DNA of 64,000 nt from Ignavibacteriales bacterium (GTDB lineage Bacteria > Bacteroidota > Ignavibacteria > Ignavibacteriales > SURF-24), in the NCBI GenBank assembly GCA_003599415.1, contig QZKB01000151.1:62001-126000 (forward strand), in the 5' to 3' direction. Below the pieces are notes generated by a model. It made no database searches, was not told the DNA's origin, and was given only the letters and a program-made list of their open reading frames with translations. The translations under genes and the position numbers were made by a program. Numbering within the stretch: position 1 is the stretch's first letter; each line of letters begins with the position of its first letter. Shown here one piece after another: positions 3,434 to 52,635 of this stretch.

Positions 3434-4216
3434 TCATTCAGCAATAATTACCTCTATCCCGTTGTTTGTTAGATTTTTGTATTCATCAAGAGGAATGTTG
3501 GAATCCGTTACAATTGTTTTTATTACCTTTATCGGAGCGATGTATGCAAAACTCTTACGTAAAAATTTACTGGAATCAGTAACAACAATTACCTCTTTGG
3601 ATATCTCTATCATAAGTTTGTTTAGCTGTGCTTCTTCTACTGTAGGAGTTGAAATTCCATATTGCGAATCAATACTATCCACACCCATAATAAATTTATC
3701 ACAGTAAAAATTTCTTATGTTGGCTTCGGCCAAAGGTCCTATCATCGAAAGAGAAGAACGTCTTAGTATTCCTCCCAGCATTATTACATTTATCTGTGGG
3801 CAATTAATTAATTGACTTGCAAGGTTTAACGCGTTGGTTATAATGGTTAGATTTTTTATGTGCGAAAGATGTTTTGTTATTTCTAAAGTCGTTGTCCCTG
3901 AATCTAAAATAATAGTATCGTCGTCTTTAATTAGTTCGGCAGTTCTTTTTCCGATTTTTTGTTTTTCCAGTAAGTGTCGTTTTGCTTTTTCGCTAAGGTG
4001 GAAATCAATGTTTACTCTCTGACTTTTAATTCCCCCTCCTCTTGTGCGGACTAATATCCCCTTATTCTCAAGCTGTGCTAAATCATTCCTGATGGTGACC
4101 TGACTTACGTGAAAAACTTTACTCAGATCTGCAACTTTAATTTGTCCTTTTTCCTCAAGGAGATCTATTATTTTTACTCTTCTTTCAAGAGTTATTTCTT
4201 TATCATCAATATTCAT
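3434..4216 (-). CDS. DeoR/GlpR-family transcriptional regulator
   Basis: N-terminal RRVKIIDLLEEKGQIKVADLSKVFHVSQVTIRNDLAQLENKGILVRTRGG HTH plus sugar-phosphate sensor domain (LDSGTTTLEI, IMGVDSIDSQYGISTPTVEEA). Confidence 0.92.
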   Translation of the reverse strand: MNIDDKEITLERRVKIIDLLEEKGQIKVADLSKVFHVSQVTIRNDLAQLENKGILVRTRGGGIKSQRVNIDFHLSEKAKRHLLEKQKIGKRTAELIKDDDTIILDSGTTTLEITKHLSHIKNLTIITNALNLASQLINCPQINVIMLGGILRRSSLSMIGPLAEANIRNFYCDKFIMGVDSIDSQYGISTPTVEEAQLNKLMIEISKEVIVVTDSSKFLRKSFAYIAPIKVIKTIVTDSNIPLDEYKNLTNNGIEVIIAE

Positions 4217-10184: not shown

Positions 10185-12227
10185 ATGAATTATTGTAAAG
10201 GGTATCATTATAAAAACCAAAAGGATTTCTTTAGAAAAGGACGAGTCCTGAAAAAATTGTTTATGAATTCAATTGCTAATAAAAGACATATATCTATCCT
10301 GATTGCAGTGTTTGTACTGGCATTTTGCGGATCTTTAAAAGCTCAATTTCCAGATAAACAAAACTGGACCCATTACGCCCGCATTTCAGGCAATAATTTA
10401 AATCCAGCTAATATTGAAAAATTAATACAAGCAGCAGTTGAACACAATACGCTTGGTATTGAACTGGATAATGATATAACTGGTCGGTATGATTCTTTCC
10501 TGGATCCATCATTAAAACTTCTGCAGATTAAAAAGGCTGCTGATGCTGCACATAAGATAGGGAATTATGCTTTCATTTATATTGCAGGCCTAGAATGTAT
10601 TACGGAAAATGCAGATAAAACCGAACACACAATGTTTAAAGATCATCCTGATTGGATTCAAAGAGATATTAATAGTAAGCCTGCAATATTCACGGGTGGT
10701 GCTTCCTTTTGGGTGAGCGAAGGAGATGAGGATGCCTGGATTAGTCCATACGCTTTGGAGTGGCGGAAGCGCTACATGGAAATTGTAAGACAGATTGCTG
10801 CAACAGGAATTGACGGAGTTTATATTGATGTTGTATACTGGATGTGGCTTTATGAAGGTTGGGAAGATAGCTGGGCAAGTTTTGATGTCTATACTGTTGC
10901 AGAATTCAAAAAGAGAACCGGTATTAACGCATTGAAAGATTTTATCCCGGGTGATTTTAATGATCCGGATTTTTTAAGATGGATTGATTTCAGGATCCAA
11001 ACAATAACCGAATTCTTTAAAGAGATTGAGGAAAATGTTAAAGCTGTAAATCCAAATTGCATTATTATTCCTGAGGTATCTCCGTCAGTTAATTCGGAAG
11101 TAGTAAGGTCAGGAGCTGATGTATATGAAATTCAGAAGTATGCCGAAGTAATTACGCATGAATTTTTTATCAATACTAATACCGGGGCGAAAAGAAATAC
11201 TTTTGACTGGCTAACTTATGTTATAGGCATCAGCACTTTACGTGCATTTGATGAAGATAAAGCAACATGGCTTTTGAGCTATTCATGGGATCACGAAGAA
11301 AATACCAATCCGCAGGATGCAATGAAACTTTTATCCTGTGCCCAGGTTATGGCCGGGGCTAATTATTGGGATGCGCCGGGACATCTTATGGCTGGATCGA
11401 ATGACTTTTCTTTAAGAAAAGAAATTTTTAAATGGATAAAGGAAAATGAAGACTTTCTTTATTCACCCAGAAAGGCTGTAAGTCCAATTGGTGTTTATTT
11501 TTCTCCGGTAACACGGAATTATTTTACTGATGATTACATTAAATCTTTTTATGGCATACTTCATCTTCTTCTAAATAACCATTTGAATTATCAGGTGGTG
11601 ACACCGAGAACATTAAATGACTTTAAAGATAATCTGCTAATACTTCCTGATGTCAGAATTCTGGGAAAGACAGAAATTGAATTAATAAAACATAAATGTG
11701 AACAGGGTTTAAATTTAATTTTAACTGGTGAATCGGGTTATTATAATAATTCCAGAAAAACGGAGAATGAAAATAGTATTCTGAAGATTTTGTGCGGTGA
11801 TAATAATGAGAGAAGTAAGTATCTATTTATACCAGAATGTCCCGAAAAAAAATATTTTGATAATCACGATACATTATTAATTAAATACTTCAGTGATCAA
11901 ATAAAAGATTTCCTGCCATCATTAAATCTTAAGTACAAAATAAAAGCTTCTTTGAATGTAAGTACAGTACAGGCAGAATTGAAGGGTAAAGACTGCATTT
12001 ACATTACCAATTTAAAAGGACTCAAAGGCTACAGTTCCTGCATCCCTCTTGTTGAAGATAAAATAGAGATTGAATTTAGTTCAGTTGAGATGCCTGAAAT
12101 CAGGTTCATTCCTTATCTGGGTGAAGAAGTTAAATTAAATGAAAACAACTTAATACAGGATAAAGATATTATTAAAATTATATTGCCTCCTGTTCAATAT
12201 GGCGGAATAGTTATAATAGAAAAATAA
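10185..12227 (+). CDS. Secreted putative TIM-barrel glycoside hydrolase (family not assigned)
   Basis: GIDGVYIDVVYWMWLYEGWEDSW...NCIIIPEVSPSVNSEVVRSGADVYEI; signal-like N-terminus (true start possibly 10263). Confidence 0.6.
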   Translation: MNYCKGYHYKNQKDFFRKGRVLKKLFMNSIANKRHISILIAVFVLAFCGSLKAQFPDKQNWTHYARISGNNLNPANIEKLIQAAVEHNTLGIELDNDITGRYDSFLDPSLKLLQIKKAADAAHKIGNYAFIYIAGLECITENADKTEHTMFKDHPDWIQRDINSKPAIFTGGASFWVSEGDEDAWISPYALEWRKRYMEIVRQIAATGIDGVYIDVVYWMWLYEGWEDSWASFDVYTVAEFKKRTGINALKDFIPGDFNDPDFLRWIDFRIQTITEFFKEIEENVKAVNPNCIIIPEVSPSVNSEVVRSGADVYEIQKYAEVITHEFFINTNTGAKRNTFDWLTYVIGISTLRAFDEDKATWLLSYSWDHEENTNPQDAMKLLSCAQVMAGANYWDAPGHLMAGSNDFSLRKEIFKWIKENEDFLYSPRKAVSPIGVYFSPVTRNYFTDDYIKSFYGILHLLLNNHLNYQVVTPRTLNDFKDNLLILPDVRILGKTEIELIKHKCEQGLNLILTGESGYYNNSRKTENENSILKILCGDNNERSKYLFIPECPEKKYFDNHDTLLIKYFSDQIKDFLPSLNLKYKIKASLNVSTVQAELKGKDCIYITNLKGLKGYSSCIPLVEDKIEIEFSSVEMPEIRFIPYLGEEVKLNENNLIQDKDIIKIILPPVQYGGIVIIEK

Positions 12228-12313: not shown

Positions 12314-14521
12314 ATGAATTGTAAAATAACAGATATAGAAGTTCTCGTTTTTTTCTTTTTGCTTCTCTATGCATCAGCATTTGCGCAAAAGAATCCTAAC
12401 GTACAAAGATTAAAAGGAAATGCAGATTACTTTTGCTATTATGGCAGTTTCGACGAGAATACTGTTCTGCAGTGTCAGTACTTTGACTTGTTGATTCTTG
12501 ATGTTAATTATATTTCTCCTTCGAAGGTTGAAGATATTAGAAATGGATTTGATAATATAACCGGAACGGATGACGACGTAATTGTTATTGGCTATCTAAG
12601 TATTGGCGAGCAGGATGGTAACCTGGTAACAGGTGATGGAACCGGACCGATTTATTGGAATGGACAAAAAATTATTTATGAAAACAAAGGCTATGCTTCG
12701 TTTTATGTGGATGATAAAGATAAAAACGGTTTGCCTGATAAAGATGGTATCTGGAATAGTTACTATGTAAATGCAGGTGATTCAGCCTGGTGGGAATTTA
12801 ACAGACCGGCAGTAGAAAACATTCTCGTCATTCATTCTTGTGACGGACTCTTCCTGGATTTGATAGATACTGCCGGTCCTAACTCCTGGGGCTTAGATTA
12901 TGAGTGGACGAAAGAAGGAATGATTAATTATGTTGAACAGCTGCGTCAGGTGTATCCCGAAAAATATCTGTTGGCAAATCGAGGTATTTTTTATTTTGAG
13001 CCCTCGCTGCCGCATTATCAATATGCAGACAGATACCGCAAGTCAATTGATGGCTTAATGATGGAAAGTTATTCTGCTACATGGGATTGGACTAATTCCA
13101 GGGGTTATGCAAATCCGGAACATACTTTTCTGTCTCAACATTTTGCTCCGCTTCTTAATAACCAGGCAAACAAAGAAGATGGTTTTAATATTTTTATACT
13201 TGATTATTTATCATCTGATCAGTCTGATCATGATCAATTGCTTGAGGGTGTTGTTAATGCTGCCGAAGGTGAACAGGGATGGCTAGTTGCTGTTTCATCA
13301 ATTTTATTGGACGAGATAAGGTACGATACATTTAATCATCATGTAACAGATTTTAATCCACCAAGCTGGAAAAATATTATTGGCATTGCTTCGTTTGAAT
13401 GGATTGTGGATAGTCTTGTCATCTACTGGAATAAAGCGCTTGATCAGACTCCTCCTGTAAAATATAATTTATACGTTAGTGAAGGAGAAGTAGATTTTAA
13501 TGCTCCTGCACAATATCAGAATATTATTCCACAGGAATCAGAATTATATGACTGTAAATATGTTGTTGGGGGATTGGATAAAAGTAAAACATATAATCTT
13601 GCTTTACGTGCATCAGATAGCGCTTTTCCGGACCAGACAGACCCTAATCAAAAAATAACTTCTCTTGGAAGTATTTCTCATAACAACATTCAAATTGACG
13701 GATACTTTGAAGACTGGGAAGGAATTAATTCATTGGTTACTTCAGAAGCACCGGTGGATACTGCGTATTCTCAAATTCCGGAAGTAAATTTTACAAACTT
13801 CTGGGCTGCGAATGATTCAGCGAAATTTTATTTATGCTACCAGACTGCGGGAAACATTTCTTCTTCTTATTTCTATCATGTTTTTATAGAAACCGACGAT
13901 GAATTAAATAAAAAAGGTTTTGTTTACCAGGATAGCGCTTCAATTGGTGCCGAGTTCATGATAGAGAGTAATTTTTTATACAAGTATACTGGTTCAGGCG
14001 GAACAAACTGGTCCTGGATTCCGGCATCTGGTATGCAGAAAGCAGATAATAGTAATCGGACAGAAATTAGTATTCCGCTTAGTACTCTTTTCACAAGCAA
14101 TTCATTTGCTCAAACATTGAAATTAATTTTCCAGGTTAACTTATCTGATGCTCCTTACGCTTTTATGAGCATAGCGCCGGTTAACTACAAAGAACAGCAT
14201 TATGAATACAGAATAAATGCTTATACAAATGTGAAAGAACAGAATGTACGGATAATCGATTTTGAATTAGAACAGAATTTTCCCAACCCGTTTAATTCAA
14301 GAACAACAATAAAGTTTAACCTTGTTCAGGATGGAAAAACAGAATTAAAGATTTATAACAGTCTTGGTCAGTTGGTGAAAACTGTAATAGCGAATGAATA
14401 TAAAAATAAAGGGACCTATTGCTATGATGTTAATATGAATACTCTTTGCAGCGGAATTTATTTTTATAAACTTGCGCAGGCAAATCAAAAAACCACAAAA
14501 GCAATGATTCTTATAAAGTAG
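12314..14521 (+). CDS. Secreted GH114-like (endo-alpha-1,4-polygalactosaminidase family / TM1410-like) protein with T9SS sorting domain
   Basis: FDLLILDVNYISPSKVEDI...VIVIGYLSIGEQDG...YYVNAGDSAWWEF...CDGLFLDLIDTAG; C-terminus FELEQNFPNPFNSRTTIKFNLVQ...GIYFYKLAQANQKTTKAMILIK. Confidence 0.7.
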   Translation: MNCKITDIEVLVFFFLLLYASAFAQKNPNVQRLKGNADYFCYYGSFDENTVLQCQYFDLLILDVNYISPSKVEDIRNGFDNITGTDDDVIVIGYLSIGEQDGNLVTGDGTGPIYWNGQKIIYENKGYASFYVDDKDKNGLPDKDGIWNSYYVNAGDSAWWEFNRPAVENILVIHSCDGLFLDLIDTAGPNSWGLDYEWTKEGMINYVEQLRQVYPEKYLLANRGIFYFEPSLPHYQYADRYRKSIDGLMMESYSATWDWTNSRGYANPEHTFLSQHFAPLLNNQANKEDGFNIFILDYLSSDQSDHDQLLEGVVNAAEGEQGWLVAVSSILLDEIRYDTFNHHVTDFNPPSWKNIIGIASFEWIVDSLVIYWNKALDQTPPVKYNLYVSEGEVDFNAPAQYQNIIPQESELYDCKYVVGGLDKSKTYNLALRASDSAFPDQTDPNQKITSLGSISHNNIQIDGYFEDWEGINSLVTSEAPVDTAYSQIPEVNFTNFWAANDSAKFYLCYQTAGNISSSYFYHVFIETDDELNKKGFVYQDSASIGAEFMIESNFLYKYTGSGGTNWSWIPASGMQKADNSNRTEISIPLSTLFTSNSFAQTLKLIFQVNLSDAPYAFMSIAPVNYKEQHYEYRINAYTNVKEQNVRIIDFELEQNFPNPFNSRTTIKFNLVQDGKTELKIYNSLGQLVKTVIANEYKNKGTYCYDVNMNTLCSGIYFYKLAQANQKTTKAMILIK

Positions 14522-14574
14522 AACTTAGTAAATGTCGGTACGAATAAATTATTTTATTGAAATGGAGACCGGTA

Positions 14575-16653
14575 ATGGTATTTAAAATCAAATCAGTTTT
14601 TGTTTTTTCTTTTTTAGTAACGATGTTGCTTGCCTTTATGACAGTCGAAATTACTGTTGCTAAGTCTGGTAAGAAAATAATTGCAGAAGGTAAAAGAATT
14701 GCAGTTGAGTTTGACGACAATCTAAAGAGCAGAATTATTTCGAAACTGGATAAAAACCTGGTACTTGGAAAATTCAGCAATTCGGAATTTGTAACGGTGA
14801 ACGGAAAAAATATTAACGATTTCAAGCTTATAGATTTTAAAATGAGTGAATGGCTGGATAGCATTGGAAACGGAAAAGAATATTTGGTTACCGGCGTCTC
14901 TAAAGGTTTGAAGAAAAAGATTTCAGTTGTCAGTTATAATGAATTTCCTTCAATGCTTTTTTTCAAAGTAGCTTATCGGAATATCAGTAAACAAAATATT
15001 ACAATTGATAGCTGGACAAGTAACAACTACTCAATATCAGCAATATCGGTAAAAGAAGGCGAACCCAAATTCTGGTCGTATCAACCAGGTTCGTATGGAT
15101 GGGATAATAACTGGATTATCCCTTTAACAGAAGGTTATTCAAGAGAAAACTATTTGGGGATGAATCATGCTGAATACGGAGGCGGTACACCGGTAGCTGA
15201 TATATGGAGGCCCGATTGCGGTATTGCAATTGGTCATGTTGAAATGGTTCCGAAATATGTTTCCTTTCCCGTAAGCATGCCAGATAAAAATGAAGCTGAA
15301 CTGGCAATAGATTATAAAAAGAAAGTAGAATTAAAACCAGGCGAAGAATTCTCTACTTTCAGAACATTTGTAGAAGTTCATAAAGGCGACCATTATAATG
15401 GTCTCGTTTTATATCGTCAGTTTATGGAGAAACGGGGAATAAAATTTATTGATACACCTTCTGATGATTATGGTACTGAATGGTGTAGCTGGGGTTTAGA
15501 ACGCGATTTTACAATGGAGCAAATTTACAATACGCTGCCTAAGGTTAAAGAACTTGGTTTGGATTGGATTGTTCTGGATATGGAATGGTACGACAAGATC
15601 GGGGAATTTAATCCTAACAAAAATAAATTTCCTAACGGTGAAGAGGACATAATTAAATTTGTTCAGAAAATTCATGAAATGGGTTTTAAAGTACAACTAT
15701 GGTGGATGCCTTTTGCAGTTGAACCCAACAGTGAGCTTATGTCTAATCACTATGATTTTCTTCTGAATGATGAAGATGGTTCACCGCATTTTATGCCGTT
15801 GTTTTTTAAATCATTTTATCTTTGTCCTGCTTCAAAAGATGTTGTTGAATATTCGAAACAGCTTGTAACAAAATTTATGATGTGGGGATTTGATGGTCTG
15901 AAGATTGACGGTAATAATATGAATTGTGCGCCGCCCTGCTTTAATCCTGAACATAATCATTTACGTCCTGAAGAATCCGCTGAAGGTATACCGGCTTTCT
16001 TTAAAGTGGTTTATGAAACGGCGCTAAGCCTTAATCCAAATGCAAAAATCGAAATTTGTCCGTGCGGTACGAATCAATCATTTTTCCTTATGCCATACAT
16101 GAATGAAACTGTAGCTTCTGATCCGCATAACTCATGGCAAGTTCGTCATAAAGGAAAAACACTTAGGGCGCTGACAGGACAGAAAACACTTTTCTATGGA
16201 GATCATGTTGAACTTAGCGATGACAAAAGTGATTTTGCATCAACTATAGGTGTCGGGGGTGCCATTGGAACCAAGTTCGTTTATCCTCCCGGAATTCATA
16301 TGAATACAGAAACAGGCGATATAAGTTTAACCACGGAAAAAGAAAAAACCTGGAAGAAATGGATTGATGTTTATAATGCCAATATGCTATCCAAAGGGAT
16401 ATATCGTGGTGAGTTATATGATATCGGTTTTGATAAGCCGGAAATTCATGTGGTTCAAAAAGACAAGGTAATTTATTATGCTTTGTTTGCGCTGGAATTT
16501 AATGGCAAAGTTGAATTAAGAGGTCTTGAAAATACAAATTACAAATTGACGGATTATGAAAACAATGTTGAGATTGGGAATACTGAAGGACCTGTTAATA
16601 AAATAAAAGTAAACTTTAAAAAACATTTGCTGATAAAAGCAGAACCAAAATAA
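14575..16653 (+). CDS. Secreted GH36/melibiase-like glycoside hydrolase (paralog of 37703-39844)
   Basis: EWCSWGLERDFTMEQIYNTLPKVKELGLDWIVLDMEWYD...GFKVQLWWMPF...GFDGLKIDGNNMNCAPPCFNPEHNH...CPCGTNQSFF...DPHNSWQVRHKGKTLRALTG...GDHVELS. GGAGA precedes ATG at 14575. Confidence 0.75.
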   Translation: MVFKIKSVFVFSFLVTMLLAFMTVEITVAKSGKKIIAEGKRIAVEFDDNLKSRIISKLDKNLVLGKFSNSEFVTVNGKNINDFKLIDFKMSEWLDSIGNGKEYLVTGVSKGLKKKISVVSYNEFPSMLFFKVAYRNISKQNITIDSWTSNNYSISAISVKEGEPKFWSYQPGSYGWDNNWIIPLTEGYSRENYLGMNHAEYGGGTPVADIWRPDCGIAIGHVEMVPKYVSFPVSMPDKNEAELAIDYKKKVELKPGEEFSTFRTFVEVHKGDHYNGLVLYRQFMEKRGIKFIDTPSDDYGTEWCSWGLERDFTMEQIYNTLPKVKELGLDWIVLDMEWYDKIGEFNPNKNKFPNGEEDIIKFVQKIHEMGFKVQLWWMPFAVEPNSELMSNHYDFLLNDEDGSPHFMPLFFKSFYLCPASKDVVEYSKQLVTKFMMWGFDGLKIDGNNMNCAPPCFNPEHNHLRPEESAEGIPAFFKVVYETALSLNPNAKIEICPCGTNQSFFLMPYMNETVASDPHNSWQVRHKGKTLRALTGQKTLFYGDHVELSDDKSDFASTIGVGGAIGTKFVYPPGIHMNTETGDISLTTEKEKTWKKWIDVYNANMLSKGIYRGELYDIGFDKPEIHVVQKDKVIYYALFALEFNGKVELRGLENTNYKLTDYENNVEIGNTEGPVNKIKVNFKKHLLIKAEPK

Positions 16654-17567: not shown

Positions 17568-17577
17568 AGGAATCAGG

Positions 17578-28791: not shown

Positions 28792-30516
28792 ATGAAGAAG
28801 TATTTACTTTCCCTTGCTTTCATACTGTTTGTTTTTACCGTACAGAATATTAATGCCCAGGTGAAAATTGATGGTGTTTTCTTTGACTGGGCTACGGGGA
28901 TGCAGTTGGATGTTGCTCCTAATGCTGAACTGACCTTTGCAGAAGGCGACGAAATGAGTCCTGCAAGAGGCGGAACAGACCCTTCCTATATGGCTGATCT
29001 TGATATAGAGGATGTATATGCAACAGATGATGCAGATTTTATTTATGTTCGGGTTAAAATGAACTCGGTTGCGAATGTTATGAACATAGCTAGTGATACA
29101 TCTTATCATGGCGGCGCTGCAATTGCGGCCTATATTTCAGTTGACCCGGGTGCAGGCGACACTACAGGTTTAACCTGGGGATGGTGGGGCAATGGTTACG
29201 ACTTTTTTGTACAGGTTTATCCGTCCGATTCATTAGCTGAATCAACCACGCGTTATCAGCAGTTTATTTGGGAGCATAAGCAAACCGGCAATGGCTGGGA
29301 TTATGAACCTGCAAGTGAAACTATTGGTTCAACTGTTGCATGGAATGCTTCCAATAATGATGTGGAATTCTCAATCCCAAAGAAGCTATTATTTAATCCG
29401 CGCTACTTGCCAGGTTTTCAATACCCGGATTCAATTTCTATTATGATTTATGCTGGTGAAAACTTTGGACCCTGGCGTGCAGACTATGCCTCTATGCCGT
29501 CGATTGCCGGTTTTAAGTTAGCAATTAAAAAGCCCGGCCCTATTGCTGTTGATGGCGTGTTCTTCGATTGGGAAACTTCTACACAGATTGATGTTTTACC
29601 GAATGTAGAAGAAAAAACATTTGCAGAGGGAGATGATACAGACCCGTTAAGAGGCAGTACTGACCCAAGTTATTTTGCCGATCTTGATATTGAAGATGTA
29701 TATGCAACAACAGATGACGATTTTGTTTACCTCAGAGTTAAGATGAACTCAGCTGCCAACGTAATGAACATTGCTAACGATACCTCATATCATGGTGGGG
29801 CTGCCATTGCCGCATACATTTCTGTTGATCCCGGTGCAGGTGATACAACCGGATTAACCTGGGGATGGTGGGGTAACGGGTATGACTACTTCGTTCAGGT
29901 TTATCCTGCAGATACTTCAACTGAGCAAATGACCGGTTATCAGCAGGCGCTTTGGGAACACAAACAAACGGGTAACGGCTGGGATTATGAAATTGCAGAT
30001 ACGTTACGCGGTGTATGGGCAAGCTGGAATGCAGGTAATAATGAGGTTGAGTGCGCTGTTCCGAAAGTTTTACTTTTTAATCCCCGTTACATGTCTAACT
30101 TTGTAGTACCTGATAGTATTGCTATAATGATTTATGCGGGTGAGAATTTTGGTCCATGGCGTGCTGATTATGCTTCCATGCCTGGCATTTCAGGGTATAA
30201 AGTTAAAGTTGCTACATCCACAGGAGTATCGGATGAAAGCAATGCAGTACCAGAAAAATATTTGTTGAAACAGAACTATCCTAATCCTTTCAATCCTTCA
30301 ACAAAAATATCTTTTTCGCTTCCGCAGGAAGGGTTGGTTAAAGTAAAAGTTTATAATCTTATTGGCCAGGAAATCTCAACATTAATGAATGAAACAAAAT
30401 CTGCCGGAAATTATTCCGTTTCATTTGATGCTTCCAGCCTTACTAGTGGAATTTATTTTTACAGTTTAGAGACTGATAACTTTAAGCAAGTCCGCAAAAT
30501 GCTTTTGCTTAAATAA
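28792..30516 (+). CDS. Secreted protein with two tandem near-identical CBM9-like domains and T9SS sorting domain
   Basis: VKIDGVFFDWATGMQLD...YASMPSIAGFK and IAVDGVFFDWETSTQID...YASMPGISGYK; C-terminus YLLKQNYPNPFNPSTKISFSLPQ...GIYFYSLETDNFKQVRKMLLLK. GAGGAG SD. Confidence 0.85.
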   Translation: MKKYLLSLAFILFVFTVQNINAQVKIDGVFFDWATGMQLDVAPNAELTFAEGDEMSPARGGTDPSYMADLDIEDVYATDDADFIYVRVKMNSVANVMNIASDTSYHGGAAIAAYISVDPGAGDTTGLTWGWWGNGYDFFVQVYPSDSLAESTTRYQQFIWEHKQTGNGWDYEPASETIGSTVAWNASNNDVEFSIPKKLLFNPRYLPGFQYPDSISIMIYAGENFGPWRADYASMPSIAGFKLAIKKPGPIAVDGVFFDWETSTQIDVLPNVEEKTFAEGDDTDPLRGSTDPSYFADLDIEDVYATTDDDFVYLRVKMNSAANVMNIANDTSYHGGAAIAAYISVDPGAGDTTGLTWGWWGNGYDYFVQVYPADTSTEQMTGYQQALWEHKQTGNGWDYEIADTLRGVWASWNAGNNEVECAVPKVLLFNPRYMSNFVVPDSIAIMIYAGENFGPWRADYASMPGISGYKVKVATSTGVSDESNAVPEKYLLKQNYPNPFNPSTKISFSLPQEGLVKVKVYNLIGQEISTLMNETKSAGNYSVSFDASSLTSGIYFYSLETDNFKQVRKMLLLK

Positions 30517-30581: not shown

Positions 30582-33131
30582 GTGATTAGAATGAGAATAT
30601 TATTCTTCACTCTCCTGATTCTTCCTTTAGTTTCATTTACCCAGACCACGGGGAAAATATCGGGAAAAATTACAGACGAAAGTAGCGAACCAATTATTGG
30701 TGCTAATATTGTTGTTGAGGGAACAAGCCTCGGGGCTTCAGCTGATGTTAACGGGAATTATTTTATCATTAATATCCCGGTTGGAACATACGAATTAAAA
30801 ATAAGCGCTATTGGATATGCTTCCCAGAAAATTGAAAAGGTAAGTATTAATGCGGGACTTACCACTAAAATTAATGCTGCCTTAAAATCATCTTCTGTCC
30901 AGCTTCAGGAAGTTGTCATACAGTATACGCGCCCGGCAGTTCAAAAAGATTTAACTTCTAAAATGCAGGGTTTTGAAATTGAAGACATCCAGGCTCTTCC
31001 CGTTAAGGGTTCTGTAAAAGATATTATTACAAAACAGGCCGGTATAAGCGCAGACATTTCTACAACTCCTGTTACCTCTCAGCCTGTGTTTGGGCAGTTT
31101 GCTACAATACCCAGCGATGGATTGCATTTCCGCGGCGGCAGAACAAACGAAACTGTTTATTTACTGGACGGTATCAATGTTACTGATCAGCTTTGGGGCG
31201 GTTTTAATCTTGATGTTGTAGGTGAGTATACTCTGCAATCAATAAGAACGTTAACAGGAACATTCGGCCCGCAGTACGGCGAGGCAATGTCCGGCGTAAT
31301 ATTGATGAATACATTAGATAATGTAGTGAAAGATTTTAATGTTCAGGCCACAACTTATACAGACAAGCTTGGTAAGAAATCCGGCGAGCAAAACTCCTAT
31401 AACTATGAGGTCCAGTTAAGCGGTCCTGTATATCCATTATCAAATGTTTCATTTTTTGGAAATGCACGGGTATATTCTTCCGACGGATATATTAATGGTT
31501 ACATTTATCCCGACTATATTGATTCGAAGGGTACAGATAAATCCGGTAGTGTTGAAGTTGTTCCTATGGCTTTCAGGGATTCAAGATTATTCTTTGCAAA
31601 ACTTATATGGCAGATTAGTGACGCATTAAAATTCCGGGTTGGTGCCATGAATTCTACCGTTGCACAGGGAGTATATAATCATTATTTCAAATACAATCCT
31701 TATGGAACACCTCATACTCATCTTTATGATGATCTTTTTTATGGAAAGCTTACACACGTACTTTCACCAAGCACTTATTATGATATAACAGTTTCAAATT
31801 ATTCCAGGAAGTTTGTTTCTCACGTTTATGATACGCAGGAAGAATATGAAATTGTAGAACCTGTTGGCGGGGCTGAGTTCTCAATTTCAGGCGGGGATTA
31901 TGTTCGCTTTGACAGCAAGTTTTCCAGGTTGGAAATACAGGGTAACTTTGCCAGCCAGGTAACACAACAGCATTTTATAAATACCGGTTTCACCATTTCA
32001 AAAATGAGAACAATATTAAAAAGAGTTAATCCTTACGGGTGGCAGACACTTGAAGATTATGATCTTAAACCGGAAAAGTATGCCGCATTTATTAATGATA
32101 AAATGGAATTTGAAGATATTGGTATGGTCGTAAACCTTGGTTTAAGATATGACTATGTTAATCCCAACAGAGAATTTATTGAAGACATTACAAAGCCGGA
32201 AGGCTCGGTTGGTAAGGTGAAAGCAAGACATTATATCAGCCCGCGTCTTGGAATAAGTTACCCTATCTCCGACGCTGCCGCATTCAGATTTGGTTATGGG
32301 CATTATTACCAGTATCCGGATTTTTACCAGTCATTCCAGGGAATGAATTCCAAGTACGAATTATATCCGGCGCCGAATGTTAAATCCGTTTCGGGCGCAA
32401 TTGCCAAAGGCGACATCCAGGAAGAGAAAACAATTAATTATGAAGTTGGTGTGCAGGCTCAGTTATCAACTGAAATATCAATTGATGTTACCGGTTTCTA
32501 CAGGAAAATATCCAACCTTATCGGAATTGAAATTATTGAAGGATACCTGACTTCCGGTGATGTTGTAAAAGCACAAAAATTTCCGGTGTTTGATAATGTT
32601 AACTTTGCAACAGTTAAAGGTGTTGAAGTATCACTTTCCAAAAGGCTGAGCAATAACTTCTCGGGTTTTCTGAACTATACATATTCACAATCACTTGTCA
32701 GCAGCTCTTTAGTGTTATCTCAACCCCAGGATGTTTCAAGAACTTTTCCTGCCGATTGGGATCAAACACATTCTTTATCATTTGGTGCAATCTTTTCGTT
32801 TCCGCACCAGTGGGGATTTTCATTGCTCGGAAGTGCGGCGTCAGGATTACCGTATACGTATAATCAATATAAACCTAATGCAGAGCGAGCTCCATGGATA
32901 GGCTCTTTTGATGGATTAGCTTATAAAGAATTTTCACTTGGAAAAATCAATACACGTTTATATGTACAGGTGATGAATATTTTCAACAGGAAAAATGTGT
33001 GGTGGGTTTATGCTGATTCCGGTCAGCCCGGCGTTGATACTAACGCAGCTACTTCTGACGATTATACTAATAATCCTCAGATGTGGGGACCGGGAAGAAG
33101 AATTCAAATTGGGTTTTCAATTAGTTATTAA
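30582..33131 (+). CDS. TonB-dependent outer-membrane receptor with carboxypeptidase-regulatory-like domain (GTG start)
   Basis: GKISGKITDESSEPIIGANIVVEGTSLGASADVNGNYFIINIPVGTYELKISAIGY; plug IITKQAGISADIS...LHFRGGRTNETVYLLDGINVTD; barrel-like C-terminus. Confidence 0.92.
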   Translation: MIRMRILFFTLLILPLVSFTQTTGKISGKITDESSEPIIGANIVVEGTSLGASADVNGNYFIINIPVGTYELKISAIGYASQKIEKVSINAGLTTKINAALKSSSVQLQEVVIQYTRPAVQKDLTSKMQGFEIEDIQALPVKGSVKDIITKQAGISADISTTPVTSQPVFGQFATIPSDGLHFRGGRTNETVYLLDGINVTDQLWGGFNLDVVGEYTLQSIRTLTGTFGPQYGEAMSGVILMNTLDNVVKDFNVQATTYTDKLGKKSGEQNSYNYEVQLSGPVYPLSNVSFFGNARVYSSDGYINGYIYPDYIDSKGTDKSGSVEVVPMAFRDSRLFFAKLIWQISDALKFRVGAMNSTVAQGVYNHYFKYNPYGTPHTHLYDDLFYGKLTHVLSPSTYYDITVSNYSRKFVSHVYDTQEEYEIVEPVGGAEFSISGGDYVRFDSKFSRLEIQGNFASQVTQQHFINTGFTISKMRTILKRVNPYGWQTLEDYDLKPEKYAAFINDKMEFEDIGMVVNLGLRYDYVNPNREFIEDITKPEGSVGKVKARHYISPRLGISYPISDAAAFRFGYGHYYQYPDFYQSFQGMNSKYELYPAPNVKSVSGAIAKGDIQEEKTINYEVGVQAQLSTEISIDVTGFYRKISNLIGIEIIEGYLTSGDVVKAQKFPVFDNVNFATVKGVEVSLSKRLSNNFSGFLNYTYSQSLVSSSLVLSQPQDVSRTFPADWDQTHSLSFGAIFSFPHQWGFSLLGSAASGLPYTYNQYKPNAERAPWIGSFDGLAYKEFSLGKINTRLYVQVMNIFNRKNVWWVYADSGQPGVDTNAATSDDYTNNPQMWGPGRRIQIGFSISY

Positions 33132-33161: not shown

Positions 33162-34166
33162 ATGAAAAGAAAATTTTATTTAACAATACTGTTTCTGCTT
33201 GGTCCAGCAACATTTCTGTTTGCACAGGGAGTTAATTATCGCGGAACTTCAGCGGTAAACTTTCTTAAAATAGGTATGGGTGCAAAGTTAGTCGGAGTTG
33301 CAGAATCAGATATTACCTTCAGCCAGGATGCATCATCGCTGTTCTGGAACCCCGGTTCAATTAGCAGAATAAATAATACAAGCGCAGTGTTTTCATATTC
33401 AACATGGCTGGTAGAAACGAACTTAACTTATTTTGCTTTTACGCTTCCAACAGAATTTGGTACTGCAGGACTTGATGTTACATATTTTACTTCCGGGGAT
33501 ATTGAAGAAACGACTTTGGAAAAGCAGGAGGGAACCGGAAGAGTTGTAAGCGCTAATGATTTATCGATCGGATTGGCGTTTGCAAAAAATCTTACGGACA
33601 GATTCTCTGTAGGCTTAAAGGTAAAGTATATTCGTGAACAGCTTGTTTCTGTAACTGCAGATGCATTTGCTTTTGATATAGGCAGCGTTTTCGTAACATC
33701 ATTTCTTAATAATATGAAGCTTGGAATTTCTCTTTCAAATTTCGGGAGCCAGATGCAGTTTGACGGAAATGATTTGCTTGTTACACATGTAGTTCCTGGA
33801 AGCCCAACAAACAAACAGATTCCTGCAATACTTCAGACCAATGAATGGAACCTGCCATTATTTTTCAGAATAGGATTAGCAACAAATGCATTTGAATATC
33901 AAAACTATAAGCTGGCAGTTAGCTACGCAATTACAGATTCAAGAGATTATGAAACACGCCATAATTTGGGCGCAGCCTTTACATTTATGGATGTTCTTAC
34001 GCTGCGCGGCGGTTACCGTTTTAATTATGATGAAGCAACATTCTCAGCAGGCCTGGGTGTAGCAATACCTTCAGACTTTATGGGTAAAGTAATGTTTGAT
34101 TATGCCTATACAGATTTTGGTGAATTGAAAGATATTCATCAGCTTACAGTTGGATTAAACTTTTAA
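33162..34166 (+). CDS. PorV/PorQ-like outer membrane barrel protein
   Basis: GTSAVNFLKIGMGAKLVGVAESDITFSQDASSLFWNPGSISRINNTSAVFSYSTWL...GLKVKYIREQLVSVTADAFAFDIGSVF...LTLRGGYRFNYDEATFSAGLGV. Confidence 0.8.
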   Translation: MKRKFYLTILFLLGPATFLFAQGVNYRGTSAVNFLKIGMGAKLVGVAESDITFSQDASSLFWNPGSISRINNTSAVFSYSTWLVETNLTYFAFTLPTEFGTAGLDVTYFTSGDIEETTLEKQEGTGRVVSANDLSIGLAFAKNLTDRFSVGLKVKYIREQLVSVTADAFAFDIGSVFVTSFLNNMKLGISLSNFGSQMQFDGNDLLVTHVVPGSPTNKQIPAILQTNEWNLPLFFRIGLATNAFEYQNYKLAVSYAITDSRDYETRHNLGAAFTFMDVLTLRGGYRFNYDEATFSAGLGVAIPSDFMGKVMFDYAYTDFGELKDIHQLTVGLNF

Positions 34167-35581: not shown

Positions 35582-37702
35582 ATGAAGAACAATTACATAT
35601 TATCAATACTAATTACGCTTATAATTGCACCGGTACTTCTTGGGCAGGCAGACCCAATGCTTTACCAGCGCTGGAATATAATGAATATAAACAGAGTACG
35701 AACTGAATTTAATAATACAGGTTTACTATGCGACGGCAATGAGCAAAGTCTTCCACTGGCACATTCACCATCCTTTGAATATCCGAATGGGAGCGGAATT
35801 AATTATGGCACTGCCGTTGGTGTTGTAATAGGAGCTCCTGCAGGACAGGATCCGGCAGCAGTTGGCGGCGATAACCCGGATAACGAAGCGTACCTTGACG
35901 GGACGATGGATGAAGGCCCTGCGGCATTCTGGGATGAAGAACATTTTGCTCCGTATCCAGAAGTAGTTGGTGGAAGCAAAGCCGCGATGAGTAATGATAA
36001 ATTAACCTGGCCAACAAGCGGTACAAATAAAGGATGGCCAGGAACTGTACCCGGAACTTCTACTCCATTATTGGTTGGTTCAGAAGGGTGGCCGGGAATT
36101 GGTGAAAGCGGAGAAAGAATTGCCGACCAGGAAACATACTCTGTAATGTATGGCTGGCGGGGAACAGATGAAGGCAATACAAACAGAAGATGGCTTAACA
36201 CAAGCATGGAAATGCGTGGACTTGCATGGACAGGCGAACTTTACCAGGATTTTATAATCTGGATTTTTGTAGTAAGAAATATTTCTTCTGCGCCAATTAA
36301 AGATATGCGCGTTGGTATTCATAGCGATTTCAGCTATCTGCCTCTTTCTTTTTCGCCAACAAGCACAGGAGATGATGACAGGCATTATTATGATAAAGAA
36401 CTTCAGCTTGCATATGGAACAGATGATAATGGTTATGAAGTTAGCCCTGCCGGTAATACTCTTGGTGCTTCAGATATTGCATGGAGCGGCACAATGGCTT
36501 TAAGGATGCCCGGCGGAGATAACAAAGTACACACTTATGATGCGTTCCATTTCTGGATGTCCGCCACAACTCCTGCGGGTAACGGTGCGGATAAAGCGTT
36601 GTACTATAAATACAACCTTGCAAACCAGAGTGATCCGCAGGATAGTGATAAAGATGGCATTGATGATGACTTTGATGAAAATGGAATACCTGACGACCAG
36701 GAAGGTGGACAGGGATATTATTTAGGTTTAGGTGCAGATGGAATTCAATTGCTTGGCTCGGATGCCTTTACCTTAAATCCGGGGGAAACAGATACTCTTA
36801 TTTTTGCAACGGTGTTTGGTTCGTCAAAAAAAGGTTTGTACAAAGCAGCTAACAATGCACTAACACTTTTTAATTCCGGCTGGAAAGTTGTTAAAGCACC
36901 AGCTGCTCCAAAAGTTGAAATTATTCCTCAGGATGGTAAAAATATAATTTATTTCAGCACTGAAAGTGAAAAAGAAGAAAAATTTGAAGGATATAAAATT
37001 TATCGTTCCGTTGATGATGGCGTTAACTGGGGAACAGAAACTTTTACGGATTTTGCCGGTGGGCTGCATTATATTCCCCTGGAACAATATGATAAAGTTG
37101 ATAACATAAAAGGTTATTACCAGACGCTTCCCGAATTTGCATGGTACTACCTTGGAAATGAAACCGGTTTGCCGACATTAAAAGTAATTGTGGATGAGCA
37201 GTTAAGTGTTTTTAAAAAGGGAGATACAGTTCGTGTTTATACGGATGACCAGGTTATTAACGGACAGAAATACAGGTATTACATTGCAGCTTACGATACC
37301 GGTAATGGAATCACCGGCCCGCTTGAAAACACTGCCGCCTCAACTCCGGTGGTAGGTTCAAACACTGTACAGGTTGTGCCTCACGCTGCAATTTCTATAG
37401 GCGATGTGTCTAATGTGAAAGTTGTGCCTAATCCTTATGTTGTTGCTAACGGTTGGGAAGTGGGCAAGGAACACATACTTCAGTTTACTCATCTTCCTGC
37501 AAGTGCAACTATAAGAATTTATAATGCAGCAGGTGAATTAGTAAGAACAATTGAACATCAGTCAGCGAATGCATTAGCGCCAAGTATTGCAATATGGGAT
37601 TTGAAAAACGAGAACCAGCAGCTTATAAGTGCAGGATTGTATTTCTTCCACATGGAATCACCTGCAGGTTCTGCACAAGGAAAGTTTATTGTAATCTTAT
37701 AA
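35582..37702 (+). CDS. Large secreted protein of unknown function, fibronectin-type segment and T9SS-like C-terminus
   Basis: Signal peptide; DSDKDGIDDDFDENGIPDDQEGG acidic repeat; C-terminus NVKVVPNPYVVANGWEVGKEHILQFTHLPASATIRIYNAAGELVRTI...SAGLYFFHME. Confidence 0.65.
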   Translation: MKNNYILSILITLIIAPVLLGQADPMLYQRWNIMNINRVRTEFNNTGLLCDGNEQSLPLAHSPSFEYPNGSGINYGTAVGVVIGAPAGQDPAAVGGDNPDNEAYLDGTMDEGPAAFWDEEHFAPYPEVVGGSKAAMSNDKLTWPTSGTNKGWPGTVPGTSTPLLVGSEGWPGIGESGERIADQETYSVMYGWRGTDEGNTNRRWLNTSMEMRGLAWTGELYQDFIIWIFVVRNISSAPIKDMRVGIHSDFSYLPLSFSPTSTGDDDRHYYDKELQLAYGTDDNGYEVSPAGNTLGASDIAWSGTMALRMPGGDNKVHTYDAFHFWMSATTPAGNGADKALYYKYNLANQSDPQDSDKDGIDDDFDENGIPDDQEGGQGYYLGLGADGIQLLGSDAFTLNPGETDTLIFATVFGSSKKGLYKAANNALTLFNSGWKVVKAPAAPKVEIIPQDGKNIIYFSTESEKEEKFEGYKIYRSVDDGVNWGTETFTDFAGGLHYIPLEQYDKVDNIKGYYQTLPEFAWYYLGNETGLPTLKVIVDEQLSVFKKGDTVRVYTDDQVINGQKYRYYIAAYDTGNGITGPLENTAASTPVVGSNTVQVVPHAAISIGDVSNVKVVPNPYVVANGWEVGKEHILQFTHLPASATIRIYNAAGELVRTIEHQSANALAPSIAIWDLKNENQQLISAGLYFFHMESPAGSAQGKFIVIL

Positions 37703-39844
37703 ATGAAGCATCTTCTTAAATATTGTTTGTTGAACACAATAACTGCTCTTGCAATTTTATCCTCTGCAGAGATAATTGCACAGGACAAGCAGTTTACTTT
37801 AAAGAATGAGAATATTGAGTTTATACTTTCTGATAAGCTTAGCGGAAAATTTTTATCAAAGGATAAAAGTGAATTATCCGTTTCTGAAAAAGTAGTAAAA
37901 GTGATTATTGATGATAAAGAATTATCCTTTCAGAAAGCCGTGTTAAAGAAGATGAAATTATTCGGTAATGAATTTCTTATTCTGGATGCTAAAGATGAAG
38001 ATGGATTGATTAATCTTTCGGTTAAAATTATTTCAGACGAAAAATATCCGGGGACTCTTACTTTTGAAAGTAAACTAAAAAATATTTCTGCCGGTAAGAT
38101 TTCAGTTGGTGAAATATCATTGTTCAACTTTTTACTTGATGCTAAGAATTTTGATGAAGACAGTTCTTATAAATTCTGGACGTTTCAGGGCGGAACTTAC
38201 GAGACAAGACGAGACTGGATATTTCCTTTAAATAAAAATTTTTACAGCGAAAACTTGATGGGAATGAATGCTGCCGATTATGGCGGCGGAATGCCTGTAG
38301 TAGACTTCTGGACAAAGGAAGCCGGAATTGCATTCGCATCAATATCTGATAAACCTGAGTGGATTTCATTTCCTGTTAAAGTTTTGGAGAACGGCAAAGT
38401 TTCTTTTTCAATTAACGATACGACTAAAAAGATTTTAAAACCGGAGGAGGAGATAACACTTGTTCCGGTATCTGTTATATTTCATAACGGCGATTACTTT
38501 AACGCCCTTAAAATTTATTCTGATATAATTAAAGGAAAATGGTTTTCTACTCCTTCTAGTGAACAGCAGGCTCTTGAGCCAGAATGGTGTGCCTGGGGAT
38601 ATGAAAGAAACTTCTCCATAGAGCAAATCAAAAGAACTCTTCCTATGGCTCAAGAGCTTGACTTTAAATGGGCAACCATTGATGACGGTTGGCAGAACGC
38701 TGACGGGGACTGGAATCTTGATAGGAATAAATTCCCAGGAGGCGAGAAGGAATTTAAAGAGCTTGTTGATTTGATTCATTCATATAAAATGAAAGCGCGG
38801 TTGTGGTGGGTGCCTTTATCTGCAAGCGATTCATCTTACAACGCAATTCACTTTCCCGACAAGATGAATGAACGAACAATGAAAATGCAAAGCAAAGTTG
38901 CATTGGAACATCCAGACTGGTTTATACTGGATAAGGATGGAAACAGAGTTCAGATTTCATGGTGGAATTCATTTTATCTTTGTCCTGCTGTTAAAGAAGT
39001 AAGAGACTATTATAAAGATTTTACTAAAAAGGTTTTTGATGACTGGGATTTTGATGGTTTCAAAATAGACGGGCAGAATTTCAATGCAGTACCGCCCTGC
39101 TATAACCCGGCTCATCATCATAAATCCCCATATGAATCGACTTATGCTGTACCGGAATATTTCAAAGACATATTAACAACGATAAAAAACATAAAAAAGG
39201 ATGCGGTCATTCAGCTTTGTCCGTGCGGTACAAATTTTTCAGTTTATAATATTCCTTATACAAATCAATTCGTCGGATCAGATCCTACAAGTCCATGGCA
39301 GGTAAGGCTGCGCGCCAAAACTTATAAGGCATTAGTTGGAAACAATATTGCTTACAGCGGAGACCATGTTGAATTGACGTGCAGAAAGTGGAGCGATAAA
39401 GAAAATAAGTTTATAGTTATTGGTCCCGAAGATTTTGCATCCACAGTTGGACTTGGCGGAGTAATATCAACAAAATTTACTCATCCCGATATTACGCAGG
39501 TTGATTCAAGCTTTATGTTAACTCCGGAGAAAAAAGAAATCTGGAAAAACTGGATGAAGATTTACAATGATGAAAGAATTTCTGAAGGTGAATATCTTAA
39601 TCTTTATGACATCGCCTTTGATAAGCCGGAAACGCATCTGATTAAAAAAGAAAATACTTTTTACTATTCATTCTTTTCAAATGAAGAATATAACGGACAG
39701 GTTGAACTACGTGGTCTTGAGAAAGGAAACTATGAAGTGTTCGACTTTGTAAACGACAAAAATTTAGGTGAAGTAAACAGCAATAATCCTTTTCTGAAAA
39801 TCAATTTTAAAGATTATCTTCTCCTTCGTCTGAAAAAAATCTAA
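37703..39844 (+). CDS. Secreted GH36/melibiase-like glycoside hydrolase (paralog of 14575-16653)
   Basis: EWCAWGYERNFSIEQIKRTLPMAQELDFKWATIDDGWQNADGDW...DFDGFKIDGQNFNAVPPCYNPAHHH...CPCGTNFSVY...SPWQVRLRAKTYKALVGNNIAYSGDHVEL. Confidence 0.75.
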   Translation: MKHLLKYCLLNTITALAILSSAEIIAQDKQFTLKNENIEFILSDKLSGKFLSKDKSELSVSEKVVKVIIDDKELSFQKAVLKKMKLFGNEFLILDAKDEDGLINLSVKIISDEKYPGTLTFESKLKNISAGKISVGEISLFNFLLDAKNFDEDSSYKFWTFQGGTYETRRDWIFPLNKNFYSENLMGMNAADYGGGMPVVDFWTKEAGIAFASISDKPEWISFPVKVLENGKVSFSINDTTKKILKPEEEITLVPVSVIFHNGDYFNALKIYSDIIKGKWFSTPSSEQQALEPEWCAWGYERNFSIEQIKRTLPMAQELDFKWATIDDGWQNADGDWNLDRNKFPGGEKEFKELVDLIHSYKMKARLWWVPLSASDSSYNAIHFPDKMNERTMKMQSKVALEHPDWFILDKDGNRVQISWWNSFYLCPAVKEVRDYYKDFTKKVFDDWDFDGFKIDGQNFNAVPPCYNPAHHHKSPYESTYAVPEYFKDILTTIKNIKKDAVIQLCPCGTNFSVYNIPYTNQFVGSDPTSPWQVRLRAKTYKALVGNNIAYSGDHVELTCRKWSDKENKFIVIGPEDFASTVGLGGVISTKFTHPDITQVDSSFMLTPEKKEIWKNWMKIYNDERISEGEYLNLYDIAFDKPETHLIKKENTFYYSFFSNEEYNGQVELRGLEKGNYEVFDFVNDKNLGEVNSNNPFLKINFKDYLLLRLKKI

Positions 39845-39858: not shown

Positions 39859-41538
39859 ATGAACAGAATTTTAAATACTTTTATTTGTCTTATATCGTTT
39901 TCACTAAACGTTACTTTTGCTCAGTCAGAAGTTACTTATCTTCCTTCCGATGCTAAATTTCCTAATCCTGAACGCGGTTTTTATACCCATACTGAAGGTT
40001 GGAATGATGCCGGTGCGCTTACAGCTTCGCAGTTAAGCGGATTGAAAAGCAAGAACCAGACATTAATTTTACGGTTGTATTACATCCCCAAATGGAGAAA
40101 CGCTGATCTGCCTTCAACCTTTCTTAATATGCTTCAGAAAGATTTTAATACTATGCGGCAATACGGAGTTAAATGCATCCTGCGTTTTGCATACTCAAAT
40201 GCAATCGGAACTGCTGATGCACCGTTGAGTGTAGTACTTAATCATCTTGAACAACTTAAACCTTACCTTCAAGCGAATTATGATGTAATAGCGTTTATGC
40301 AAGCCGGTTTCATAGGAGCCTGGGGCGAATGGCATTCATCCACAAATAATCTTGATAATACTTCAAGCAGATCCGCAATCCTGAAAAAGATTCTTGAAGT
40401 GCTTCCGCCGGAAAGGATGGCACAGGTAAGAACACCATACTTTAAGCAATCTATTTTTAACAATTATAATCCATTAACTGAAGAGCAGGCTTTTACACAA
40501 ACAGAATTTTCACGTACAGGTCATCATAATGATTGCTTTCTTGCAAGCGAAGATGATTATGGAACATACCAGGATACAACAAAAGACAAAACTTACATTT
40601 CACTGGATACACGTTTTGTTCCGATTGGAGGAGAAACCTGTAATCCAACAACATATTCGGAATGTGTAAATGCAATTTACCAGGTTCAAAGATTGCATTG
40701 GACTTATGTTAACAGCAATTATCATCAGACTGTTTTAGGCAACTGGCAGAAATCGGGCTGCTATGATGAATTTGTTAAGAAGTTAGGTTACAGGTTTGAG
40801 TTAATTGACGGGCAGTTTACCGATTCTACAAAACCGAATGGTACATTATCGGTAAAATTGAAAATAAGAAATATCGGCTATGCATCACTTTACAACCCGC
40901 GTGATGTTGAAATGATTTTAAGAAATGAAGCCGACACTTTTTTTGTAAAGCTTGATACTGATCCGCGATTGATTATGTCCGGCGATACAGTTGAGATTAC
41001 TGCTGACCTCGGTATCCCGTCAACTATTAATGATGGTAATTATGAATTGCTTTTAAATCTTCCCGATCTGCTTTCGTCAATTCATTATAATCCTGCTTAT
41101 TCAATCAGGCTTGCAAATATGGATTTATGGGAGCAGGTTACTGGTTACAACAAACTGAATGTAATGGTAAATATTAATCAGAATAATTCTTCACCGGATT
41201 ATACAGGTATAAAAGTATTTGAACCATTAACAATTCCAACATCCGTTGAAGATGAGAGAAAGAGCAATCGATTGGATTATAAACTTAAAGTGAGCAACTA
41301 CCCAAATCCTTTTAATAATGAAACAAAAATAGTTTATAACTTAGACCGGGCAGGAGACGCGACATTAAAAATTTATAATATGCTTGGGCAGGAAATTCAA
41401 ACTCTTGTTAATGAAACGCAGGATATAGGTGAATACGAAGTTGACTTTAGTACAGATAATTTATCCAGCGGTATTTATTTTTATGTGCTAAAAATAAAAA
41501 GCCAGGTGGCAACCGGCAAAATGATTTTGTTAAAATAA
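39859..41538 (+). CDS. Secreted DUF4874/DUF4832 protein with T9SS sorting domain
   Basis: FPNPERGFYTHTEGW...TLILRLYYIPKWRNADLPSTFLNMLQKDFNTMRQYGVKCILRFAYS...FMQAGFIGAWGEWHSS; C-terminus VSNYPNPFNNETKIVYNL...GIYFYVLKIKSQVATGKMILLK. Confidence 0.8.
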   Translation: MNRILNTFICLISFSLNVTFAQSEVTYLPSDAKFPNPERGFYTHTEGWNDAGALTASQLSGLKSKNQTLILRLYYIPKWRNADLPSTFLNMLQKDFNTMRQYGVKCILRFAYSNAIGTADAPLSVVLNHLEQLKPYLQANYDVIAFMQAGFIGAWGEWHSSTNNLDNTSSRSAILKKILEVLPPERMAQVRTPYFKQSIFNNYNPLTEEQAFTQTEFSRTGHHNDCFLASEDDYGTYQDTTKDKTYISLDTRFVPIGGETCNPTTYSECVNAIYQVQRLHWTYVNSNYHQTVLGNWQKSGCYDEFVKKLGYRFELIDGQFTDSTKPNGTLSVKLKIRNIGYASLYNPRDVEMILRNEADTFFVKLDTDPRLIMSGDTVEITADLGIPSTINDGNYELLLNLPDLLSSIHYNPAYSIRLANMDLWEQVTGYNKLNVMVNINQNNSSPDYTGIKVFEPLTIPTSVEDERKSNRLDYKLKVSNYPNPFNNETKIVYNLDRAGDATLKIYNMLGQEIQTLVNETQDIGEYEVDFSTDNLSSGIYFYVLKIKSQVATGKMILLK

Positions 41539-47139: not shown

Positions 47140-48008
47140 TGGATAAAAACCTTGTAATACTTGCCGGCGGAATTTCATCCCGTATGAAAAAATCTGTTGT
47201 TAGCGAAAGCGATATTGATAAAAAATTAATTAACGATGCGGATGAAAAATCGAAATCAATGATTGGTGTTGGAAATAACTATCGACCGTTCCTGGATTAC
47301 CTTTTATTCAATGCAAACAAAGCGGGATACAAAGACGTAACAATTGTTATCGGTGAAAAAGACAATTCAATTAAAGATTATTACGGCTATAAAAATAGCG
47401 GGAATAAATTTCTTGATCTTGAAATTACTTATGCGGTTCAATTCATTCCTGATGGAAAAGAAAAACCACTTGGTACTGCCGATGCGCTTTACCAGGCGGT
47501 TAAACTAAGAAGCGACTGGAAAGGGAAAAAGTTTTCTGTTTGCAACAGCGATAATCTTTATTCTGTTGAAGCTCTTGATTTGATGTTGAAAACAGAGTAT
47601 AAAAATGCAATGCCGGATTATGATCGTTCAGCGCTCGATTTCGAAGTTGAAAGGATAGAAAAGTTTGCGGTTACAATTAAAGACGATGAAAATTTTCTGC
47701 TTGATATAATTGAAAAGCCTGATGCGGATTCGATTGAAAAAGCAAGAGATACAAATAATGTAATCGGTGTAAGCATGAATCTTTTCAGCTTAGATTATGA
47801 TATGATTTATCATTTCCTTGAAACCGTGCCTTTTAATCCGGTTAGAAATGAAAAAGAATTGCCCGATGCAATTAAGCTTATGCTTAAGGAATATCCCAAA
47901 TCTTTATTCTGCTACCCGTTTGCAGAGCACGTTCCTGATCTTACAAATAAGAGCGACATTATAAAAGTAAAAAAATACCTCGAAGAAAATTTTACAAACA
48001 TTTTATAA
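47139..48008 (+). CDS. Sugar-1-phosphate nucleotidyltransferase-like protein
   Basis: LVILAGGISSRMKKS...YRPFLDYLLFNANKAGYKDVTIVIG...KPLGTADALYQAVKLR...FSVCNSDNLY. TGATG overlap with kinase. Confidence 0.85.
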   Translation: MDKNLVILAGGISSRMKKSVVSESDIDKKLINDADEKSKSMIGVGNNYRPFLDYLLFNANKAGYKDVTIVIGEKDNSIKDYYGYKNSGNKFLDLEITYAVQFIPDGKEKPLGTADALYQAVKLRSDWKGKKFSVCNSDNLYSVEALDLMLKTEYKNAMPDYDRSALDFEVERIEKFAVTIKDDENFLLDIIEKPDADSIEKARDTNNVIGVSMNLFSLDYDMIYHFLETVPFNPVRNEKELPDAIKLMLKEYPKSLFCYPFAEHVPDLTNKSDIIKVKKYLEENFTNIL

Positions 48009-50362: not shown

Positions 50363-50372
50363 GAGAAGTGAA

Positions 50373-51320: not shown

Positions 51321-51324
51321 GCTG

Positions 51325-52614: not shown

Positions 52615-52635
52615 AAAAATTTTTAGTGGAATAAA

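Follow-up and report, generated by a model that had tools for sequence, protein, structure and literature searches.

The locus studied here raises the question of which polysaccharide is cut by a secreted protein of 735 aa, encoded at 12314..14521 (+; ATG at 12314, stop at 14521), and how the released sugars enter metabolism. The window, a 64,000-nt stretch of DNA from an Ignavibacteriales bacterium, lies on contig 2 of a 5.03-Mb assembly (173 contigs, 88.5% complete, 7.3% contamination). A sequence-only reading had proposed that the protein is GH114-like and, together with a tagatose-type catabolic module, degrades a galactosamine polymer. We compared the window with G832, a genome of the same order, and with Marinimicrobia genomes, including G396 and G429.

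The open reading frame is real, and both motifs quoted in that reading are present in its product. Secretion, also claimed there, is supported by a signal-peptide-like stretch at the N terminus and a type IX secretion system (T9SS) sorting domain at the C terminus (PF18962, 5e-12; residues 656-732). Residues ~30-340 form a divergent TIM barrel of the GH114/166/191 superfamily, and FN3-like and CBM9-like regions occupy the middle of the protein.

Divergent membership of the endo-galactosaminidase superfamily

The GH114 hidden Markov model (HMM) PF03537 failed to match the 12314 product even at E = 10, an outcome that the sequence-only reading had itself named as refuting, so that the GH114 assignment technically falls on that check; a phmmer search of the PDB with the single sequence also returned no match. 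Because these single-protein searches were empty, homology was established through relatives. A phylum-wide search revealed relatives of ~285 residues, 25-30% identical to the 12314 product and nearly all PF03537-positive; PF03537 matched 18 of the 20 aligned relatives, but not the window protein itself, and scored a same-order relative (L056) at 15.9 bits, below its cut-off of 27. Close relatives were found in G832 and in Marinimicrobia (L027, whose catalytic domain is 50% identical), and a single-protein search of the genome contigs led to one locus only. A profile of six close relatives aligned by hhalign to the PF03537-positive set with a probability of 99.9% (E 7e-31), and the combined profile retrieved from the PDB PelA (6e-33), TM1410 (1e-16) and the GH114-type entry 9ep5 (1e-15). 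At the sequence level, PelA and TM1410 were reached only by profiles and not by the single sequence.

The putative catalytic pair, at the C-terminal end of the barrel, is D182 (codon 12857), within the conserved FLD motif, and E251 (codon 13064). Both residues are invariant across 20-24 aligned relatives and align exactly with D160 and E218 of PelA, the double replacement of which yields hydrolase-inactivated PelA (PMC12022489). An AlphaFold model of the protein (pTM 0.80) adopted the modified TIM barrel of endo-galactosaminidases, and Foldseek matched it best to PelA (1e-15; TM to target 0.75), followed by TM1410 (4e-14; 0.69) and Ega3 (1e-8; 0.72). The alignment supplied to AlphaFold included PF03537 proteins, so the structural evidence is not fully independent and the fold match supports rather than proves the assignment. 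Given the profile alignment, the model matches and the correspondence of D182/E251 with the PelA pair, the 12314 product belongs, as judged by sequence and model, to the endo-galactosaminidase superfamily as a divergent member outside GH114 proper. Of the GH114-like claim, the motifs and a firm remote homology to the superfamily stand, and the match to the family HMM does not.

One result pointed elsewhere. With the profile built from close relatives only, the top PDB match was PbFucA (9e-5), slightly ahead of PelA (4e-4), and PbFucA carries acidic residues at the same places as the catalytic pair. On an alternative reading, the protein happens to share the fold but is an endo-hydrolase, of the fucanase-like GH168 type or another, whose polysaccharide substrate is not aminated. 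GH168 fucanases (9jos/9jom) do appear in the fold search, ranking after PelA and GH191, but at a TM to target of ~0.5 rather than 0.7-0.75; no sulfatase or fucose-catabolism genes were recognised among the window proteins scanned, and the neighbouring genes indicate alpha-galactosamine. We regard this reading as unlikely.

Within the superfamily, the best fold match is the GH166 hydrolase domain of PelA (5tcb), with which the 12314 product shares ~19% identity. It differs from PelA in an extra acidic-loop insertion, an insertion between the catalytic residues and the T9SS and CBM9-like additions, and its gene lies in a degradation locus rather than a pel operon. With GH191 (TM1410 and Env-GH191) it shares the fold and the 69-residue spacing of the Asp and Glu, which equals that of TmGH191, with 14% of positions identical when the folds are aligned; of these two, Env-GH191 acts on Pel and TM1410 has no demonstrated activity. 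With GH114 (Ega3; PF03537) the fold is common, and the family is reached through intermediate PF03537-positive Bacteroidota proteins, not by a direct HMM match.

The acidic loop is an insertion that sets the close family apart, and it precedes the catalytic Asp. It consists of a DxDxNGxxD-type stretch (residues 134-142) followed by a conserved Trp (134-147 overall), in the region to which the mobile lid loop of such enzymes has been assigned (PMC12054363). From the pattern we would guess that it binds calcium.

Neighbouring hydrolases point to alpha-galactosamine

Immediately downstream, 14557..16653 (+) encodes a GH36-like protein that matches the alpha-galactosaminidase FpGalNase over its full length (phmmer 9awt, 5.8e-71), and a second such protein is encoded at 37703..39844 (+; 9awt, 3.1e-55). 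The equivalents of the FpGalNase nucleophile D463 and of C513 and D532, the latter two required for activity (PMC11762096), are kept in both, which assigns them by sequence to the FpGalNase type of GH36. The 37703 product also keeps D346 and D347; in the 14557 product D347 is replaced by M, so that its DD motif lacks the second Asp, and Y464 is kept in neither protein. These retained residues are the likeness to the Flavonifractor plautii FpGalNAcDeAc/FpGalNase pathway, from which the window differs in linking its GH36 genes to endo-hydrolases of a Pel-like type.

Melibiase Pfam matches among the window proteins, and a GHMP kinase that matches galactokinases as well, would also fit an ordinary alpha-galactoside or galactan locus with GH36 alpha-galactosidases, a galactokinase and a nucleotidyltransferase, beside which the amino-sugar genes lie by accident. 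The GH36 proteins are, however, far nearer FpGalNase (1e-55 to 1e-71) than other alpha-galactosidases (1e-14 or weaker), an AgaR-type repressor and a GatZ-like protein score above their cut-offs, and relatives of the locus carry GH109; an ordinary alpha-galactoside locus seems to us quite unlikely.

A candidate second endo-hydrolase is the T9SS-secreted DUF4874 and DUF4832 protein at 39859..41538 (+; Pfam 2.6e-48 and 9.5e-65), which is also present in the G396, G429 and G832 loci. By domain content (DUF4832), it resembles an enzyme with a TIM barrel and DUF4832 from the pel locus of Streptococcus intermedius, which disrupts GalNAc-rich Pel aggregates (PMC12345266). Further secreted or hydrolase-like products are a GHL10-like TIM-barrel protein at 10185..12227 (+; PF02638 5e-5, below cut-off), a remote GH36/melibiase-like protein at 41566..44145 (+; 60% identical to a G832-locus protein), a protein at 28792..30516 (+; conserved in the loci) with a T9SS tail and a CBM9-like domain that recurs, as judged by sequence pattern, and a conserved secreted protein at 35582..37702 (+; 72% identical in G832). 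The orphan secreted protein at 53548..55626 (+), a candidate new hydrolase, is ~51-55% identical to Marinimicrobia locus proteins; it has no Pfam relative, a PDB profile search was empty, and its structure model (pLDDT 31) is too low in confidence for a fold.

A locus shared with G832 and Marinimicrobia

On one contig, G832 encodes, in order, a 12314 homologue, a CBM9-like protein, TonB and PorV-like proteins, two more secreted proteins, GH36 and DUF4832; the same contig carries the 41566 homologue, the symporter, the GHMP kinase, the nucleotidyltransferase and the ROK regulator. Many of the same families occur in Marinimicrobia G429 and G396, where GH109 adjoins the kinase or GH36 gene. These shared gene sets tie the 12314 gene to the 28792-55626 set despite 14 kb of intervening other genes.

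The transport genes of the window are a TonB-dependent-receptor-like outer membrane protein (30582..33131, +) and a PorV-like outer membrane protein (33162..34166, +), both conserved in the loci, and a sodium:solute symporter (44218..46026, +; PF00474 6e-22) that is 52% identical in Marinimicrobia loci. The symporter gene is followed by a conserved locus core of a galactokinase/N-acetylgalactosamine-kinase-like GHMP kinase (46054..47139, +), for which galactose is also a possible substrate, a sugar-1-phosphate nucleotidyltransferase-like protein (47139..48008, +) and a ROK-family regulator (48016..49233, +). The conserved intracellular set is the GHMP kinase and the nucleotidyltransferase, and by analogy this suggests a sugar-1-phosphate route like that begun by the GalNAc kinase of Bacteroides thetaiotaomicron, which serves mucin use together with GH109 (PMC11992087). 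The B. theta polysaccharide utilisation locus BT4240-50 follows the same logic for mucin GalNAc, with GH109 (here in the relatives' loci) and a sugar-1-kinase; the two kinases belong to different superfamilies, GHMP in the window and APH in B. theta, and the BT locus as described has no Pel-type endo-hydrolase.

The mucin parallel, the GH109 genes of the relatives and the activity of FpGalNase on de-N-acetylated blood group A (PMC11762096) would also fit a locus for the breakdown of glycoproteins that bear GalNAc in mucin- or Tn-like O-glycans or in blood-group-A-like ends, with the 12314 enzyme cutting within these glycans, rather than of a galactosamine homopolymer. We consider this rather unlikely: no protease, sialidase, fucosidase or M60-type genes were recognised among the locus proteins scanned, and the 12314 enzyme comes from a superfamily known for action on alpha-1,4-linked homopolymers.

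Two further features of the Marinimicrobia loci were observed. In G429 the 12314-like catalytic domain occurs a second time, as a short protein (L036:6748-7815, 355 aa) that has no T9SS tail and whose gene adjoins that of the nucleotidyltransferase. An HGSNAT-like membrane N-acetyltransferase, which might re-acetylate terminal galactosamine, is encoded beside some of the loci (L036:2698-3813, E 2e-7; L039:2438-3553); three homologues lie elsewhere in the window genome, so this association is not specific.

A tagatose-type module particular to the window

The tagatose module proposed in the sequence-only reading proved partly accurate. An AgaR-type DeoR repressor at 3434..4216 (-) exceeds the cut-off of NF040755 (283.6 versus 260 bits), and the GatZ/KbaZ-like tagatose-bisphosphate aldolase subunit at 51268..52614 (+) is confirmed by TIGR02810 (597 versus 568.8 bits). 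The SIS-domain hexosamine-6-phosphate deaminase/isomerase at 49310..50362 (+), which had been called AgaS-like, is closer to a GlmD-type deaminase: it scores 113 bits against a cut-off of 529 with NCBIfam agaS_fam, and a higher 201 bits, against a cut-off of 580, with the GlmD model. The PfkB protein at 50373..51320 (+), a candidate tagatose-6-phosphate kinase, is a PfkB-family kinase as claimed but is not assignable to tagatose-6-phosphate kinase. The class II enzyme encoded at 1866-2897 satisfies the general models for class IIA FBP aldolases and is an ordinary FBA, but scores low as a tagatose-type enzyme (67-109 bits with the KbaY/GatY models, cut-offs 383-542). No deacetylase was recognised within the window, in agreement with the sequence-only reading, which had allowed for an off-locus enzyme; outside the window, the same genome encodes two NagA proteins that score above cut-off.

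The module is also missing from the syntenic locus of the same order: SIS-PfkB-GatZ was not found there, the sole SIS protein in G832 being of GlmS length, and GatZ was not found in the four Marinimicrobia genomes. Among the genomes examined, the SIS-PfkB-GatZ set was seen only in the window. With the Escherichia coli aga/gam regulon the window shares AgaR, a SIS protein and GatZ/KbaZ; it differs in that its SIS protein is nearer GlmD and that no KbaY-type aldolase, PTS or local AgaA was recognised.

The window holds two parallel modules, 16680-20265 and 49310-53496, each encoding an EamA transporter, a hexosamine-phosphate-deaminase-like protein, a PfkB kinase and an aldolase-type protein. 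They differ in pairing a NagB fold with an AraD-like protein in the first and a SIS fold with GatZ in the second; the EamA-family transporter of the latter (52636..53496, +) is 61% identical to that at 16680-17567. The 18242-19225 product is a divergent NagB-like protein in which, by eye, the position of the NagB catalytic Glu148 reads Gln. A separate oddity is the cobalamin-dependent methionine synthase ORF at 56310-60473 (-), which contains an in-frame DUF559 (residues 777-883, E 2e-33) between its B12-cap and B12-binding domains, with low-complexity linkers on either side.

Proposed function

PelA, Ega3 and Sph3 work in the biosynthesis of their own polymers, and the 12314 enzyme could by the same token trim a self-made Pel-like polymer in biosynthesis or biofilm dispersal. 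PelG was absent from the five genomes tested (the 88.5% complete window genome and four Marinimicrobia), whereas the Thermotoga maritima control gave a match, and the locus holds uptake and catabolic genes. We therefore set self-directed trimming aside as highly improbable; the absence of PelG makes degradation of a foreign polymer likelier, and the locus probably scavenges a foreign galactosamine-rich polymer.

Taken as a whole, we think it probable that the 12314 product is a secreted hydrolase of this superfamily, acting most likely on alpha-1,4 GalN/GalNAc polymers, in a conserved utilisation locus. Homology, the alignment of catalytic residues, synteny, the regulator class and the absence of PelG underlie this reading, which proposes a substrate, a linkage, endo action and an order of steps. 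The core of the galactosamine-polymer idea is upheld by independent support from the FpGalNase-like GH36 proteins, the DUF4874/DUF4832 protein, AgaR and the GH109-bearing syntenic loci. As we infer it, the substrate with the best support is an alpha-1,4 galactosamine polymer resembling Pel or galactosaminogalactan; the inactivity of TmGH191 on galactosaminogalactan (PMC12054363) counts against it.

In the proposed pathway, the T9SS-exported 12314 enzyme would cut Pel- or galactosaminogalactan-like slime from other organisms by a retaining mechanism, with D182 as the presumed nucleophile and E251 as the acid/base, and the DUF4874/DUF4832 protein would add another endo cleavage. FpGalNase-like GH36 enzymes, with GH109 in the relatives, would then release single GalN/GalNAc residues. 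The CBM9-like proteins and the TonB/PorV-like pair would serve at the outer membrane and the symporter at the inner membrane, after which the GHMP kinase and nucleotidyltransferase would provide the conserved sugar-1-phosphate route. In the window genome, alone among those examined, the deaminase, PfkB and GatZ proteins with off-locus NagA may send hexosamine-6-phosphate via tagatose phosphates to glycolysis.

In the literature that we searched, we found no catabolic locus dedicated to Pel or galactosaminogalactan. It is possible, and we put it forward tentatively, that the DxDxxGxxD loop marks a new GH family, distinct from GH114, GH135, GH166 and GH191, that anchors an undescribed locus type of two phyla for foraging on cationic polymers of galactosamine in biofilms built by other microbes. 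The biofilm matrices of bacteria and fungi include Pel and galactosaminogalactan as polymers, and the locus, if it acts as proposed, would offer a candidate route by which such a polymer reaches central metabolism, as well as new enzymes for cutting matrices rich in galactosamine. It would also give the DUF4874/DUF4832 proteins, and the orphan family at 53548-55626, a role that can be tested.
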